DNA of 64,000 nucleotides from Dyella sp. RRB7 (lineage in GTDB: Bacteria > Pseudomonadota > Gammaproteobacteria > Xanthomonadales > Rhodanobacteraceae): NCBI RefSeq assembly GCF_022761115.1, contig NZ_JAKWJS010000007.1, positions 62,001 through 126,000 of the forward strand, read 5' to 3'. Below, piece after piece: positions 40,368 to 63,450 of the stretch. The notes beneath the pieces are model-generated. The model was given only the letters and a program-made list of their open reading frames with translations. It ran no database searches and was not told where the DNA came from. The stretch's first letter is position 1. Each line of letters opens with the position of its first letter. A program made the translations under genes and the position numbers.

Positions 40368-40909
40368 TGACAGTGTTGCTGGGCAGCTTCGCGTGAGCGG
40401 GGCTGTCCGGTCGGCTTGGCAAGGTGAGTAGCGCCTTGCCGATGCGCTTCTTCTTTCCGCCGAATTGCGAGATCAGCTGCCGGCTGTGCTCTTCCCAGCG
40501 CATGTATTCGACTGCCAATGCCGGCCGGGCCTAATCCCGTTTCAGAAAAGGGCTGACGCCGATCGCTGGCGTCAATCAGCATTCCAGCGAAGGCCCGAGT
40601 TGCCGTCGAACGGATGTTACCGGCATGCTGGACATGTCTGAATCCGCAACCCATAGCGGACAAAGCTCCTGCATGCAGAAGTCCAGGTCTGGCTGACCGA
40701 AGTCCAAGATATTGCCCTCAGCGTGGACTATTTGCTTCCCGTCGGACTTCGATAAGATGCAGAAGAGCGGGCCCATCGAGGATGGCACCGCTAAAAGGGG
40801 ATTCACCAGCTAGCTGTTCGGGCATCACCTATGTGACGGCCTGTCCGCGTGCGTGGCAGGTGGAATGCCAGGAATTATCTCGTCAACTCAACAGGAGGAG
40901 TCGTTCGTG
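40368..40909. other. Gap with palindrome copy and possible gene remnant
   Basis: This 542-bp stretch has no clear intact gene. On the minus strand around 40518-40370, ALAVEYMRWEEHSRQLISQF and following residues look like genuine protein but lie just after a stop and run into the peptidase gene, so this may be a remnant. A copy of the GTCCGC palindrome lies at 40635-40661. Confidence 0.4.
40635..40661. repeat. GTCCGC/GCGGAC palindromic element, copy A
   Basis: TGTCTGAATCCGC, then AACCCATAGCGGACA. The right half is nearly identical to the right flank of the IS30 element (CCCATAGCGGAC). The left half is degenerate. Confidence 0.6.
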
Positions 40910-41308
40910 ATGAAGAAGACACCTGGGAAATTTGTAACTGCGCTTTGCATGCTTGTTCTCGTTGGTTGTTCGGCCACGCCAACCAAGCCAGGAGACGCTG
41001 CACCGAGCATCGTATACAACAAGCCAGAAGCGACGGTACAGAAGGCAGCGGTTGACGCCTTGGTGGCCAACGGCTTCGTGGTTAGCAAATCCGATGCTGA
41101 GTATGTCGAAGGTGCGCGGCCTCACAAGATGGGCCTTGTGGTCGGTTCTGGTGGCGAGTCCGCGGGTGTCTGGCTGTCGCCGCTGGGTGACGACAAGACC
41201 GCGGTCAAGGTCAGCACGGCCAAGTCGTTCGCAGGCATAGCCGGCCAGAAGAGCTGGGACAAGGAGATTATTGCAGAGATGGATAAGAACATCGGATCTC
41301 ATCAATAG
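40910..41308 (+). CDS. Small lipoprotein of unknown function
   Basis: This 132-aa protein has AGGAGGAG upstream and a lipoprotein signal (FVTALCMLVLVGCSA). A GTG three bases earlier could also start it. The mature part, TVQKAAVDALVANGFVVSKSDAEYVEGA...GVWLSPLGDDKTAVKVST, looks like the alpha/beta folds of small outer-membrane lipoproteins that measure difference-type traits (two-stranded halves around a helix). No enzyme motif is visible. The next lipoprotein gene follows after 31 bp on the same strand, so they probably form an operon. Confidence 0.75.
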   Translation: MKKTPGKFVTALCMLVLVGCSATPTKPGDAAPSIVYNKPEATVQKAAVDALVANGFVVSKSDAEYVEGARPHKMGLVVGSGGESAGVWLSPLGDDKTAVKVSTAKSFAGIAGQKSWDKEIIAEMDKNIGSHQ

Positions 41309-41339
41309 CCCGATTCAGCCCAACGATGCGGGGGAGATC

Positions 41340-41711
41340 ATGAAAAGATTGCTGTGGGTGGTTTTCCTCGCATCTAGCCTAAACGCCTGCATGGCGACGA
41401 CGGGAAACTATCGATCGTTGAACGAGCATAATGCCGCTCGGCCGCCCGATTGTGATGTCGCGATCTTCAAGGACCAGCTACCAGCCAAGCCATATGTCGC
41501 TATTTCGCGACTGAACGTTCATCTGGAAAAAACCTTCTTCACGCCTTCCGATTTTTCGTCCGCAAGCGGCGAGCTCAGAAGGCAGGCGTGCCTATCCGGT
41601 GCCGATGGTGTTATCGACATCGAGGAGAAGAAGTCCAGTTTCCTCGAGACGCGCATCTACAACCTGTCCGCAACAGGAATAAGGTTCATCGATAGGACCT
41701 CTGTGCAATGA
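41340..41711 (+). CDS. Small lipoprotein of unknown function
   Basis: This 123-aa protein has GGGGGAG before the ATG and the signal RLLWVVFLASSLNACMA, where the Cys is the lipobox residue. The mature part has DCDVAIFKDQLPAKPYVAISRLNVHLEKTFF and ELRRQACLSGADGVIDIEE. This resembles the YbjQ/RcsF-like pattern seen in small lipoproteins with ADGVI(D/N) near the end of a helix. The function is unknown. It is paired with the preceding lipoprotein, and an IS element follows at 41800. Confidence 0.75.
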   Translation: MKRLLWVVFLASSLNACMATTGNYRSLNEHNAARPPDCDVAIFKDQLPAKPYVAISRLNVHLEKTFFTPSDFSSASGELRRQACLSGADGVIDIEEKKSSFLETRIYNLSATGIRFIDRTSVQ

Positions 41712-41788
41712 AAGTCATTCTCAACGAAATTTTTTCCGCGAGAGATCGGGCAAGCCGGGAGCATGGTTCTGGTGGAGATGGCCTTATA

Positions 41789-41800
41789 TCCGCTCTCGAC
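41789..41800. repeat. Left half of palindromic element B, split by IS30
   Basis: TCCGCTCTCGAC up to the IS end. With the right half CCCATAGCGGACC (43028-43040) it restores a complete palindromic element. The last C can be counted with the repeat or with the IS. Confidence 0.75.
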
Positions 41801-41828
41801 TGCGACTTCAGTCGGTCAACGCAACACA
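41800..41828 (+). repeat. IS30 left terminal inverted repeat
   Basis: The 29 bases are an exact reverse complement of 42999-43027. The transposase stop codon lies inside the repeat. Confidence 0.93.
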
Positions 41829-42968
41829 TCGCTGGAATCGTTCGGCCGGTGTTTCAAAGTTGAGCGTCTGCCTGGGTCGCTCATTCAACTCCCGCGCCAC
41901 GGCATCGAGTTTAGCCTGAGAGTAGACCGAGAGGTCCGTGCCTTTCGGGAAGTACTGGCGTAGCAGTCCATTGGTGTTCTCGTTCGAACCCCGCTGCCAC
42001 GGATGTTGCGGATCGCAGAAGTAGACCTGGATGTCGGTCGCCAACGTAAAGCGTTGGTGGTCGGCCATCTCCTTGCCGCGATCCCACGTCAGCGACTTGT
42101 AGAGTTCGCGGGGCAGCTTGTGTGCGTGCTTGATCAGCCCATCGATCACCGTTTGGGTGTCTCGACTTTCCACCCTCACCAGCATGACCAAACGCGTATA
42201 GCGCTCAACCAGCGTGGCGATCTGGCTGTTGTGGCTCCCCATCAGTAGGTCGCCTTCCCAGTGGCCAGGCACGGCCCGGTCCTCGACTTCGGCCGGCCGT
42301 TCGCGGATCGACACCATGCCGGTGAGCTGACCGTGGTTGGGCGTCTTCTGTGTGTGATGGCGCGAGTGGCGCATCGTGCGTGTACGGCGCAAATGGGCTT
42401 GCAGCTCCTTTTTCAGGGCACCGCGGGCCTGAATGAAAAGGGTGCGATAGATCGTCTCGTGCGACACCCAGTGCTCCTCGTCGTCGTCGGCACGCTGTTT
42501 GAGCCAGCCCGCAATCTGCACCGGTGACCATCGTCGCTGAAACTTGGCTGCGACCACCTTGGACAGCACGCGGTGCTTCTTGAGTTTGCAGACCTTTGGC
42601 CGACGGGCGCGCTCCCAGGCCTGTTGATCGGCCTGGTTGGCCCGGTAGCTGTCCCGTCCGCCGTTCCGCTGCAGCTCACGGCTGATCGTCGATGGCGACC
42701 GATGAAGCTGCGAGGCCATGGTCCTGAGCGAATGTCCCAGTGCCACCGACCGCGAGATCTCTTCGCGCTCGGCCAGCGTCAAGGCGCGGGTGGAACGATG
42801 GCGCGGAACCGGTCGAATGCCACCGGTTTGCGCCAGCACCCGCCGGATCGAAGAATGCCTCCGGTCCAGCAACCGGGCGATCTGATGAAGCGACTCGCCC
42901 TTCTGCCAGAGGTCCCACAACAAGGACATCTGGCCTTCGGTGATAGGCCTGCGAGGTCTGCGTGCCAT
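41808..42968 (-). CDS. IS30-family transposase
   Basis: This 386-aa protein has two helix-turn-helix regions. One is LHQIARLLDRRHSSIRRVL near residue 27. The other is the IS30 signature LTLAEREEISRSVALGHSLRTMASQLHRSPSTISREL. A DDE integrase core follows, with PGHWEGDLLMG (first Asp), LTWDRGKEMADH (second Asp) and QRGSNENTNGLLRQYFPKGTDL (Glu). The length and all motifs are intact. It fills almost the whole IS between the inverted repeats. Confidence 0.96.
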   Translation of the reverse strand: MARRPRRPITEGQMSLLWDLWQKGESLHQIARLLDRRHSSIRRVLAQTGGIRPVPRHRSTRALTLAEREEISRSVALGHSLRTMASQLHRSPSTISRELQRNGGRDSYRANQADQQAWERARRPKVCKLKKHRVLSKVVAAKFQRRWSPVQIAGWLKQRADDDEEHWVSHETIYRTLFIQARGALKKELQAHLRRTRTMRHSRHHTQKTPNHGQLTGMVSIRERPAEVEDRAVPGHWEGDLLMGSHNSQIATLVERYTRLVMLVRVESRDTQTVIDGLIKHAHKLPRELYKSLTWDRGKEMADHQRFTLATDIQVYFCDPQHPWQRGSNENTNGLLRQYFPKGTDLSVYSQAKLDAVARELNERPRQTLNFETPAERFQRCVALTD

Positions 42969-42998
42969 GCAACACTCCTTCCGCTTGCGCGGCTATAG

Positions 42999-43027
42999 TG
43001 TGTTGCGTTGACCGACTGAAGTCGCAG
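42999..43027 (-). repeat. IS30 right terminal inverted repeat
   Basis: The 29 bases are an exact reverse complement of 41800-41828. They lie 30 bp upstream of the transposase start. Confidence 0.93.
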
Positions 43028-43040
43028 CCCATAGCGGACC
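43028..43040. repeat. Right half of palindromic element B, split by IS30
   Basis: CCCATAGCGGACC. It continues the left half at 41789-41800 across the IS. Confidence 0.75.
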
Positions 43041-43066
43041 AGCTGGGACGTCAAATAGGAGATTAT

Positions 43067-43555
43067 GTGATCAAGAGCTACCGTACTACTTCGACATCGC
43101 GATTTGTAACGCTGTTGGTCGGCATTCCCGGGATTGCGTTGTGCTTCTGGGCTGGAACAAAAGCCGTTGGTCAGGCACCCGTCATCATTGCCTTCGCCTT
43201 CGTGGCGCTAGGAGTTGTTCTTGCCGTAAAAGTTCTGTTTGACTTGACGTTGCGAGTCGTGATGGATGCTCAATCAATAACTCGATCCTGGCAGTTCGGC
43301 AGCGCAGTTGTCCCCATCAAGGAAATTCATCGTCTCGCTTGGGGTGGTGCTCGTGGCGGACTGATATTGACTATCCACTACGGCACGAAGCGATTCATAC
43401 AGATTTCGAGTAATTCGCTCGAGAAGAACGAGTTGCGCGCGATACACAACGATGTGCTCGCATCTATCGGGCTTGAAGGGACACAACTGATGCCCCGCTT
43501 CGCTGAATATGTTGGCTACGTTGATGTCGACGAGACTCTTAAGATGAAGGGATGA
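43067..43555 (+). CDS. Membrane protein with PH-like domain, unknown function
   Basis: This 162-aa protein starts at a GTG preceded by TAGGAGATT; longer frames would begin inside the IS. Two membrane helices (FVTLLVGIPGIALCFWAG and PVIIAFAFVALGVVLAVKVLF) are followed by a cytoplasmic beta-rich part (LRVVMDAQSITRSWQFGSAVVPIKEIHRLAW). This looks like a bacterial PH domain of the two-helix-plus-PH type. The IS now lies directly upstream, so its expression may have changed. Its end overlaps the truncated hydrolase gene on the other strand. Its AT content is higher than that of its neighbours. Confidence 0.65.
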   Translation: MIKSYRTTSTSRFVTLLVGIPGIALCFWAGTKAVGQAPVIIAFAFVALGVVLAVKVLFDLTLRVVMDAQSITRSWQFGSAVVPIKEIHRLAWGGARGGLILTIHYGTKRFIQISSNSLEKNELRAIHNDVLASIGLEGTQLMPRFAEYVGYVDVDETLKMKG

Positions 43556-44225
43556 CAATGTTCGCTGTCGACATAGAGCGAGCCTTTCCTGACCGGCGGT
43601 AATCGATACCCACGAAGGACGCGATATCGGCAGGCTTGTCTACAGTGAATTCATTCGCCACTTTGCCCGTTATTCGATGTCCGTGATCCGAGGCCACGGG
43701 CGGCTTGAACACCAGCGCTTGGTTGTCGCCTTCCTCCGGCGTGACATCCCACTCCCAAGCGGAAGTAAGTACGCTGAAACCGTTACGCTGCAGAAAACCG
43801 GTATCGATGAAAGGCGGCTTTTGGGTGGGATCGATCACATAGTTCAACATGCCAGTGACGCCACCACCTCGATTGACGACGTCGTAGAGCAGCGTGGAAT
43901 CGATCGCGTTGACTGGCCTGACAAGCACGAAGTCCGTCGAGAATTCGACCAGGCCGCTAGCGTCACGCGGCGCCAGATTCAGATCAACGATTCGAAGGTT
44001 CGCTTTGTTATGCGGATCCAGCCGGAACCATGCGCGCCCGTGAATGACCTCATAGGTGCCCGCTCCGGGGAATACCCTGCCCTCCTGATAGGGCTTTCGG
44101 TCGATGACCTCGATATGGTCGACGGCAGCAAAGGTAGGGGGCGAAGCAAAGAATGCGAGTACCGACCACAATATCCAGCGTGAATACGACCATCGAGGCT
44201 CTCGATCTTTCCGACTCACGGACAT
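43539..44225 (-). pseudogene. Truncated alpha/beta hydrolase domain protein (N-terminal part only)
   Basis: The 228-aa frame has a signal peptide (WILWSVLAFFASPPTFAA). It then has the N-terminal domain of a large secreted hydrolase family: YQEGRVFPGAGTYEVIHGRAWFRLDPHNKANLRIVDL, GLVEFSTDFVLVRPV, LLYDVVNRGGG. Members I know of this family (Abhydrolase_10 type) are roughly 600 residues long, with the catalytic domain after this part. Here the frame degenerates after FVGIDYRRSG and stops. A deletion between here and the PH-protein gene is likely. It should not be catalytically active. Confidence 0.7.
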
Positions 44226-44361: not shown

Positions 44362-44389
44362 AGGTCCGCTTCCGACCTGGAGTGGACCT
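44362..44389. repeat. GTCCGC/GGAC palindromic element, copy C
   Basis: AGGTCCGCTTCC, then GACCTGGAGTGGACCT. The outer AGGTCC/GGACCT arms are perfect. It overlaps the final codons of the TetR gene. Confidence 0.65.
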
Positions 44390-45038
44390 AAGACTCGGTC
44401 GCCCCGATGTAGCTGAGAAACATCCGGGCCAGTTCGCGCTCCAGAAACTGATCGTCGGTGGGGACTGGCGGCTGCAATTTTTCCGCGGTATCGCCGGCCA
44501 GCACGAGCTCTGCAAGCGTCGCCGAGACCATGAGGAAGGCCATGGTCAACGCTGACTTGGGGTGCGGGTGGCGCATATGCTTTTGATGGGTCATCAGCAC
44601 ATCCGATAAGTGTTCCACGGCGCCGTTTTCCAGTTGCACAGCTTTTCGTTTGAACGCCAGGTGGTCGCTGGCCCGCACAAATTGGCGTAGCGCCCGGATC
44701 AGCTTGGCGTTCTTTCGATAGCTCGCGAGCATGGTGCGCGTGATGCCCTCAATCAGCGCCTGGATGCTGCTTTGCTGTGCCACCTCCGTGGTGAACACTT
44801 TTTTCAGGTGCACCAGCTGATCTTCGAGGATACGAAGAATGCATCGCTCCATTAGCGCGTTCTTGTCGGGGAAACGCCGGTAGATTGCTCCCGGCGTAAG
44901 GCCCGCATATTCGGCGACGCGCGGAACGGTCGCGCCTTCCAGGCCGTATTGCCCAAGCACCTCCACGGTCGCTTTGATCAACTTCGTTTCGGATTCGCGA
45001 CTGCGCGCCTGGCGCGGCGCAAGAGGTGTCTTGGCCAT
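44388..45038 (-). CDS. TetR-family transcriptional repressor
   Basis: This 216-aa protein has an N-terminal TetR helix-turn-helix: KLIKATVEVLGQYGLEGATVPRVAEYAGLTPGAIYRRFPDKNALME. A helical ligand domain follows. It is divergent from an MFS transporter gene, with a 28-bp perfect-armed palindrome between. The usual logic is that the repressor blocks both genes until a toxic compound exported by the MFS pump binds it. The final codons run into palindromic element C. Confidence 0.9.
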   Translation of the reverse strand: MAKTPLAPRQARSRESETKLIKATVEVLGQYGLEGATVPRVAEYAGLTPGAIYRRFPDKNALMERCILRILEDQLVHLKKVFTTEVAQQSSIQALIEGITRTMLASYRKNAKLIRALRQFVRASDHLAFKRKAVQLENGAVEHLSDVLMTHQKHMRHPHPKSALTMAFLMVSATLAELVLAGDTAEKLQPPVPTDDQFLERELARMFLSYIGATES

Positions 45039-45077
45039 CGGTCATTCCTGGTCGGCCCGGGTAGTGGACATGGTAAT

Positions 45078-45105
45078 GATGTAAATGTAAATTTGCATTT
45101 ACATC
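45078..45105. promoter_or_regulatory. Operator palindrome between tetR and MFS genes
   Basis: GATGTAAATG and CATTTACATC are perfect 10-bp arms around TAAATTTG. This is the size and position expected of a TetR-dimer site. It ends 15 bp before the MFS start and lies 40 bp from the TetR start. Confidence 0.85.
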
Positions 45106-45120
45106 AAAGAGGGGTGGGCC

Positions 45121-46350
45121 ATGGATCTTGAGCACGCCGAAGCCGTTGGGATTCCCGCGAACAGCGCGCATCCGCTGCGGAACACCGCTTTTCGCCGCTG
45201 GCTAATGGGCAGCACCGTTTCACTGTTGGGAGATCAGTTCTACCTCGTCGCCTTGCCCTGGCTGGTGCTGGACAAGCTGGGTTCGGCGGCCACGCTAGGC
45301 AGCTTGATGATGGCCGGTGCGATTCCCCGCGCCGCGCTGCTGCTAGTCGGCGGAGTGATTGCTGACCGGTTTTCCGCGCGATGGATCATGCTGACGACCG
45401 CCGCCATTCGCACGCTTTGTGTGGCGCTGAGCGGTGTCCTTGCAGCACAAGGCCACCTGCATCTGGCACAGCTATACCTGCTGGTGGTGGTGTTTGGCAT
45501 CGCCGATGCCTTCGCCATGCCAGCGCAATCGGCCTACCTGCCCTGGCTATTGCGCGGCAATCAATTGGTCGCCGGCACGGGGCTGAGCCAGGGGGCCGCG
45601 CAACTCACCTCCATCCTTGGGCCGATCCTTGCCGGTTTGGTCATTGCAAAGCTGGGCATTGCCTCTGCGTTCTACATCGATGCAGTGAGCTTTATTTTCG
45701 TGATCGCCGCCTTGCTGCGATTGCCGGATCCACCGAGGACGGTTTCACCCACTCATCCCCTCGAGGCCATGAAGCAGGGCATTTCCTATGTGCTTGCTGA
45801 CGCACCGCTGCGCACCATGATGCTGCTCGCGATGGTGGTGAACCTGTGCGTGACCGGACCTTTGTCAGTAGGCATGGCGGATCTGGTGAAAACCCAGCTT
45901 GGCTCGGCGAGCGCCTATGGCGTGTTGCTGTCGGCTGCTGCTGTGGGCGCACTCGCCGGCGCCCTGCTGGCAGGCGTGTGGAAAGTTCAGCGGCGGGGCT
46001 TGCTGATACTCGCTGGCAGTGCGGTATTGGGCGTATGCCTTGCTGGAATCGGCCTGTGGCCCACGGGCGGTTACTGGCTGGCAGGCGTGCTTGCGTTGAT
46101 CGGATGCGTGGCGGGGTTCGTCAACGTGCATATCGGCGCCTGGGTGATGCAGCGTATCGACCCGGCAGTGCGGGGGCGCGTATCCAGCGTGCTTATCCTG
46201 GGTTCGCTGGGCATGGCGCCACTTTCGATGGGTCTGGCAGGCCTTGCCTTGTTGGTGAATGTCTCGGCGCTGTTCCTGCTGGCTGGTGGCATCCTGATTT
46301 GTATCAGCGCGGTCGCAGCACAAGGCCCTTCGATAAGGAATATCTCCTGA
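45121..46350 (+). CDS. MFS exporter (MFS_3/enterobactin-exporter type)
   Basis: This 409-aa protein has about 12 membrane helices. The pattern AFRRWLMGSTVSLLGDQFYLVALPWLVLDKLGSA, GVIADRFSARWIM, and LGPILAGLVIAKLGIASAFYIDAVSFIFVIAALL is typical of the EntS/MFS_3 drug-efflux group. It is divergent from the TetR gene and shares its operator. The exported compound is unknown. GAGGGGTGGG lies just before the ATG. Confidence 0.9.
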   Translation: MDLEHAEAVGIPANSAHPLRNTAFRRWLMGSTVSLLGDQFYLVALPWLVLDKLGSAATLGSLMMAGAIPRAALLLVGGVIADRFSARWIMLTTAAIRTLCVALSGVLAAQGHLHLAQLYLLVVVFGIADAFAMPAQSAYLPWLLRGNQLVAGTGLSQGAAQLTSILGPILAGLVIAKLGIASAFYIDAVSFIFVIAALLRLPDPPRTVSPTHPLEAMKQGISYVLADAPLRTMMLLAMVVNLCVTGPLSVGMADLVKTQLGSASAYGVLLSAAAVGALAGALLAGVWKVQRRGLLILAGSAVLGVCLAGIGLWPTGGYWLAGVLALIGCVAGFVNVHIGAWVMQRIDPAVRGRVSSVLILGSLGMAPLSMGLAGLALLVNVSALFLLAGGILICISAVAAQGPSIRNIS

Positions 46351-46400
46351 GTACCCGAATTAACTTGGTGCTGGCGATATCCTTGCTGGTGTTCCGTAAA

Positions 46401-46426
46401 GTTTGCTTCCGACCTGGAGCGGACAT
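46401..46426. repeat. Palindromic element, copy D
   Basis: GTTTGCTTCCGACC, then TGGAGCGGACAT. It shares CTTCCGACCTGGAG with copy C. Confidence 0.6.
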
Positions 46427-63424: not shown

Positions 63425-63450
63425 TGTTCGCTTCCGACCCTACGCAGACA
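63425..63450. repeat. Palindromic element, copy I
   Basis: GTTCGCTTCCGACCC, then TACGCAGACA. The core and most of the left arm are kept. Confidence 0.5.

Follow-up and report, generated by a model that had tools for sequence, protein, structure and literature searches.

The 64,000-nucleotide stretch of Dyella sp. RRB7 DNA analysed here (contig NZ_JAKWJS010000007.1, positions 62,001 to 126,000; hereafter the window) contains an IS30-family insertion sequence seated in the middle of a palindrome. Judging from sequence comparison, we consider it probable that this element is target-specific and that the palindrome in which it lies marks the unit boundaries in a directional array of gene cassettes.

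The insertion sequence and its target site

The insertion sequence spans 1,226 bp on the minus strand (41801..43026), its ends having been placed by comparing relatives. It encodes an IS30-type DDE transposase of 386 aa (41808..42968, minus strand), which matches the Pfam domains HTH_38 and rve and reaches 292.7 bits against NF033563 in a profile scan, where the cut-off is 80. Terminal inverted repeats of the IS30 family span 20-30 bp; here they form a perfect pair of 27 bp, the left one (41801..41827) being the reverse complement of the right one (43000..43026). The initial annotation had recognised both the family of the element and the perfection of the repeats, and in these respects it was right; the length of 29 bp that it gave to the repeats has to be shortened to 27 bp by comparison with other copies. 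In copies from other genomes, the base outside the constant end TGCG varies by orientation, so that TGCG is preceded either by CGAC or by GGGT. Because the base adjoining the repeat changes in this way, the outermost C and G in the supposed 29-bp repeat are target bases. The RRB7 genome holds a single copy of this insertion sequence, with a 69% relative on another contig, and the nearest named relative having such palindromic sites comes from Dyella marensis (81% amino acid identity).

The target palindrome is split into two halves. The left half, together with the left copy of the duplication (ATCCGCTCTCGAC), occupies 41788..41800 on the plus strand and follows the pattern GTCCGCTNNCGACCCNNAGCGGAC apart from its first base; the right half, with the right copy of the duplication, in which one base differs (GCCCATAGCGGAC), occupies 43027..43039 on the same strand. 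The insertion point is the central 2 bp of the 24-bp palindrome and, as had been noted from the window alone, both flanks joined give a normal palindrome copy. The target duplication of 2-3 bp expected of the IS30 family is found, as identical 2-bp flanks, in 17 of 21 two-ended elements, and imperfectly in the window copy. Among the 17, the duplicated bases are AC in eight cases and GT in five, besides TC, CA, CT and AG, the last two representing one 339-bp insertion found in two species. The elements lacking identical flanks are the window copy, G008:C5 and two mini-elements of 79 and 191 bp. In the window the left flank reads AC and the right flank GC, one of the two bases being off; at the 43027 side, relatives in the orientation of the window copy mostly read ACCC. 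The earlier impression of an insertion with no visible target duplication was thus a misreading of the boundary, as the 29-bp repeat had absorbed the 2-bp duplication. Duplication-free insertion as a property of the insertion sequence was likewise rejected, since a 2-bp duplication is seen at other copies.

The window copy is most simply read as a 2-bp duplication followed by one substitution. The element would have been pasted into the central AC of the palindrome with duplication of this AC, the right copy of which would now read GC; to judge by its family, it may have moved as a circular intermediate in a copy-out-paste-in process. It is also conceivable that the window copy truly arose without a duplication, either as a hybrid formed when IS copies from two palindromes recombined or through a blunt insertion. 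The disagreement between the two flanks, AC and GC, would suit such an origin, any two half-palindromes would give a normal palindrome, and an empty site was not found in the 19 other genus genomes, because none of them (0/19) matched both flank genes together. We nevertheless regard a duplication-free origin as improbable, given that a single base differs, that the large majority of the other two-ended elements have the duplication and that no near-identical second copy was found in the RRB7 genome.

Short elements with the same IS ends, about 80, 190, 240 and 340 bp in length, also occupy palindromes. Those of about 242 bp were seen at L167:5170-5412, L185, L195, L196, L197, L204 and L209, those of 339 bp at L176 and L177, and that of about 80 bp at L199. 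Having the ends of the insertion sequence and no room for a transposase, they are MITE-like derivatives.

The palindrome family and its occupants

Allowing up to three mismatches over the 20 fixed positions of GTCCGCTNNCGACCCNNAGCGGAC, we counted 503 copies in 66 loci and none with the reversed pattern as control. These loci, which comprise 787,532 b from 20 genus genomes (20 species), were picked around sites among the matches listed because they hold arrays, so that the counts describe array loci and not a whole-genome sample. The arms GTCCGCT and AGCGGAC flank an asymmetric core, CGACCC, each base of which is 98-99% conserved; two bases on each side of the core are variable, and the consensus reaches about 30 bp, with no conserved positions farther out. 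Exact sites number 250 in the genus genomes, as against none for the control, and multiple arrays occur in one chromosome. Over 119 relatives, exact sites are present in 19 of the 20 genus genomes, in 13 of 51 from the rest of the family and in 1 of 48 from the rest of the order.

At the level of the phylum, the exact pattern GTCCGCTTTN6AAAGCGGAC, which is too strict to gauge spread, was found in 3 of 398 genomes and its reversed control in 1 of 398, while GTCCGCTN10AGCGGAC matched 4 of 17 named genomes (control 0). Sites with the same arms and other cores were seen in an uncultured Sphingomonadaceae (L323), in Pantoea (L326) and in Bradyrhizobium (L325). Three of the four sites in L323 face one way and one the opposite way, which counts against the reading as directional cassette arrays. 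The exact site was also observed in 13 stretches of viral contigs (L331-L343), some of which carry several sites; both directions are mixed in several of these stretches, and L339 has close opposite-facing pairs. When translated, the palindrome yields recurring peptides, FGSEAD and SDPKRT among them, in spurious ORFs (ORF lists L218-L221). Strings similar to these peptides are common in database proteins.

In order to relate the insertion sequence to this repeat family, its copies in other genomes were compared. An IS-only query gave matches in 39 of 101 relatives, from which we used the 48 places where an IS end could be read, leaving aside fragments confined to the interior and several pieces at contig ends; a 191-bp element at G010:C18:173794 belongs to the set of 21 two-ended elements and lies outside the 48-place count. 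When one mismatch in the arm is allowed, 44 of these places have at least one IS end inside a palindrome, and at 40 of them every readable end lies in a palindrome arm. Some of the places depend on one another: a single insertion is common to G004:C43 and G018:C12, and a copied block to G009:C1:1462217 and G009:C1:1281519. The arm GTCYGCT, again with at most one mismatch, stands at the correct spacing at 58 of 68 junctions, compared with 1% of random window positions, and 50 of the 68 end exactly in CGAC or GGGT. Most copies hence share one position in the repeat, as is expected of a palindrome-specific insertion sequence. The places without a palindrome end are G013:C10:112714, G009:C1:1281519, G027 and G019:C1:3556243; at the G009 exception the palindrome is additionally interrupted by an IS110-family element. 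The suggestion of the initial annotation that the element may target the repeat family is supported by these junctions, and unrelated sequence flanks the other copies at 4 of the 48 places at most.

More distant IS relatives are represented by 80 loci, 46 of which were examined and 41 scored, five ending at a contig edge; the 34 fragmentary or more distant loci stand outside this count. Both palindrome arms enclose 17 of the 41 (control 1.7%), with cores other than CGACCC. Many distant hosts of IS30 relatives have few or no exact sites, and targeting at 17 of 41 loci is therefore no proof of arrays there.

A second family of insertion sequences occupies the same sites. IS110-family elements (PF01548 and PF02371) with IS1111-like subterminal repeats lie at loci L271, L272, L306, L315 and L281. 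Their left junctions directly follow GTCYG of the palindrome in all six cases shown, and at the right junctions the remaining palindrome continues in four, two of which come from one copied block. A 2,634-bp block, in which an IS110-family element precedes an IS30 copy, was seen in two arrays of G009 with 99.9% identity (L271:10629-13262 and L272:8327-10960), and outside this block the palindrome halves differ. Members of the IS1111 family, namely ISKpn4 and ISPst6, are described as targeting integron attC sites (PMC11187229), a parallel that supports, without proving, a cassette role for the palindromes.

Directional arrays and the limits of their intervals

Neighbouring palindromes less than 3 kb apart face the same direction in 418 of 419 pairs, a single pair being opposite; their median spacing is 502 b, and runs comprise up to 24 sites. 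Usually one short ORF lies between neighbours. Of 415 intervals, nine have no ORF of 60 aa or more; among the others, the longest ORF runs with the site in 371 and against it in 35, and the distance from the stop codon to the next site has a median of 17 b. That some cassettes contain a reversed ORF counts against the cassette reading.

Within the window, the array seems to start at the IS-occupied site. The first cassette holds an ORF of 162 aa without a Pfam match (43067..43555, plus strand; the GTG start is our choice), and positions 43028-43572 match G009 at 78%, where the corresponding stretch lies between a palindrome and an IS-occupied palindrome. This homology stops at a decayed palindrome with five mismatches of 20 (43560..43583, plus strand). 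Two cassette-boundary palindromes on the plus strand, with two mismatches (44364..44387) and three mismatches (46401..46424), enclose a two-gene cassette (44364..46424, plus strand) that, according to Pfam, encodes a TetR-type regulator (44388-45038, minus strand) and an MFS transporter (45121-46350, plus strand). An 86.9% identical unit is present in G002 (L308 from 5697), and the homology between the two copies ends 0 to 1 b from both palindromes. Another palindrome with three mismatches stands isolated in the window (63426..63449, plus strand). The genes to the left of the insertion sequence (40800-41703) are collinear with G010 (83%) and G004 (75%), in which no palindrome was seen.

Units were compared through plus-strand hits with E <=1e-10 that covered at least 60% of both units, pairs within 5 kb being skipped. 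This yielded 48 homologous interval pairs at different places, which fall into 33 families and have identities of 68-99%; in 13 of the pairs both members belong to one genome. Homology extended more than 30 b beyond the palindrome in none of the 48 and ended within 12 b on both sides in 31; most of the other 17 end short of the sites, which counts against the cassette reading. Control ORFs outside the arrays of the same loci gave 31 pairs; in 22 of these the homology continued beyond the ORF for more than 30 b and in 12 for more than 100 b, an overrun measured from the ORF and not from the site. One interval of the RRB7 genome has 95% and 86% copies in two other species, and the base-by-base alignment of the three genomes places both ends at sites, with unrelated neighbours on either side. 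Altogether, the intervals display a pattern by which integron arrays are recognised, being single-ORF units that lie in directional arrays and appear to change places at the site.

Movement of the intervals could instead be driven by the insertion sequences themselves, either as a composite transposon made of two IS copies that occupy neighbouring palindromes or by an IS30 transposase that cuts the palindromes and links the ends of cassettes. IS copies do occupy array sites, and the nearly identical IS110 and IS30 block recurs in two arrays of G009; however, the compared cassettes are bounded by IS-free palindromes, and G002 has 54 exact sites with far fewer IS matches. The precise removal of both copies that this would entail is, to our knowledge, not known for the IS30 family, and we consider IS-driven movement very improbable.

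The proposed cassettes carry diverse cargo. Among 120 random cassette ORFs taken from 355, we found 35 Pfam families with at most three ORFs each, and at least two thirds of the 120 had no Pfam match. The cargo includes an acetyltransferase, immunity-like proteins and PF18287 (integron cassette protein); a defence library run against the same 120 ORFs matched four families, one ORF each.

The variable bases next to the core allow the point of exchange to be approached. Among 33 pairs that are at least 80% identical, similarity is at background outside the interval and high inside, and the change falls within the palindrome. At the left palindrome, sharing of the variable bases right of the core reaches 0.67 and 0.64 against backgrounds of 0.46 and 0.33, whereas left of the core the value is 0.52 against 0.46, hardly above background. 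At the right palindrome, the values right of the core are 0.52 and 0.33, at or near background (0.46 and 0.31), and position 8, left of the core, is near background at 0.52 against 0.46; the switch point is therefore not placed to the base. A clean core exchange predicts more sharing at position 8 than 0.52, and this value counts against it. Seventeen pairs of at least 92% identity, inspected letter by letter, agree with the picture from the 33.

The main rival to the cassette reading is recombination between short repeats. The palindromes would then be REP-like hairpins without a recombinase of their own, and general recombination or strand annealing over the 24-30 bp repeat, for example during DNA uptake, would exchange what lies between them. 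Like REPs, which are known IS targets (PMC1525189), they are extragenic palindromes; in addition, no recombinase was found and the switch point is not sharp. On the other hand, one-way neighbours with mostly one ORF per interval are unlike scattered REPs, and a highly conserved core between varying flanking bases fits an exchange core better than a hairpin. Half-sites outside palindromes, counted in the array loci, are not enriched (170 versus 163, sd 70, for permuted 7-mers), so there is no uptake signal, and a DNA uptake sequence was rejected as an identity for the repeat. All in all, we hold short-repeat recombination to be somewhat unlikely.

Candidate recombinases and relation to known systems

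Under the cassette reading, the intervals would move by site-specific recombination at or beside the core, the inequality of which may set direction, and the inverted arms would bind recombinase subunits. Because of the site geometry, with arms of about 9-12 bp and a 6-bp core, our first guess is a tyrosine recombinase acting in trans. The IS30 element would live off these sites while sparing the genes, much as IS1111-type elements do on integron attC.

Inspection by eye of the ORFs near the arrays, in clusters of three or more, revealed no recurring recombinase. The RRB7 genome has six PF00589 places, none of them in the fetched arrays; among the five of these six proteins that were scanned no integron integrase was found, the best reaching 131 bits against TIGR02249 (cut-off 265). 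The third Xer-like protein of this genome, a XerC-like one (L319), was rejected as the shared recombinase, its close relatives occurring only in G002, apart from matches at the level of XerC and XerD. Recombinases of other genomes were queried with the L319 protein alone, a search that would miss a remote integrase; it returned two matches each in the array-bearing G006, G007, G011, G012, G013, G014 and G015, and Xer-type matches in every genus genome.

Integron attC sites are marked by R-boxes with the motifs GTTRRRY and RYYYAAC. Both boxes within 40 b were present at 0 of the 503 sites (random 3/503), and attC identity of the sites was rejected by this absence. One could still imagine integron arrays with unusual attC sites that were stranded without their integrase, as the array logic is the same and the cargo similar, PF18287 included. 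Such an origin is hardly credible when no site has the R-box pair, nothing is conserved beyond about 30 bp, all five scanned tyrosine recombinases fall below the integron-integrase cut-off and arrays lie at many places of one chromosome.

Taking the cassette reading further, these sites may constitute a cassette system apart from integrons and Xer modules. It would combine 24-30 bp palindromic sites, a CGACCC core and a trans-acting recombinase; it would form many directional arrays per chromosome in the genus and parts of the family, extend to distant bacteria as sites with the same arms and other cores, and have been settled by IS30 elements (core) and IS1111-like elements (arm) that evolved to live in the sites. 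To us, the chances for and against this wider proposal appear evenly balanced. No description of these arrays was found in the open-licence PMC literature, outside which preprints and most subscription papers lie, and their novelty is likely. If the intervals are cassettes, they would give soil bacteria of this group a second, integron-like route for acquiring small accessory genes and reshuffling them. The joint would escape tools looking for attC, and the question becomes a concrete one: which enzyme exchanges the joints? A site this short, in which arms and core are separate, could also serve as a new recombination tool. Moreover, this would be a clear case of insertion sequences from two families that settled on cassette joints, spare the genes and may travel with the cassettes.

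The insertion of such elements into palindromic repeats is already known, and the insertion sequence of the window is in itself an ordinary one. IS30 of E. coli, the best-studied member of the family, is reported to insert into the central 2 bp of a nearly palindromic hot spot with a 2-bp duplication (PMC9333248). The window element shares its transposase family, the insertion at the centre of the hot spot and, on the simplest reading, the duplication; its target, however, is another sequence, dispersed through the genus as a repeat family of hundreds of copies. A further IS30-family element is IS1655 of Neisseria, the target specificity of which has reportedly been studied. Copies of IS1655 were tied to REPs in 2 of 13 and 2 of 6 cases (PMC1525189), unlike the relatives of the window element, nearly all of which occupy the palindrome. 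Insertion into a palindromic repeat is likewise common to the REP-targeting elements IS1397, ISPsy8, ISRm22, IS621 and ISPa11, for which it often occurs on the axis of symmetry and can involve up to 100% of copies (PMC1525189). In the portions of this source drawn on here, the families given are IS3, IS110, IS4, IS256 and IS5, with IS30 absent, and REPs are not described as cassette joints (PMC1525189).

Integron arrays resemble the present ones in being directional, in that most units comprise a single short ORF whose stop codon precedes the site, and in their diverse cargo and shared units; they differ from them in that the site of the arrays described here is a palindrome of 24-30 bp that lacks R-boxes, that one chromosome has several arrays and that an integron integrase was not found. 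The pdif (Xer) modules of Acinetobacter are gene modules bounded by short inverted arms around a 6-bp core, and in this layout they are comparable to our sites; the arms of pdif and dif themselves look unlike GTCCGCT and AGCGGAC. The IS1111 elements of attC, ISKpn4 and ISPst6, are similarly insertion sequences specialised on cassette recombination sites (PMC11187229), whereas here an IS30 element at the core and IS110-family elements at the arm have taken up a site that is not attC.
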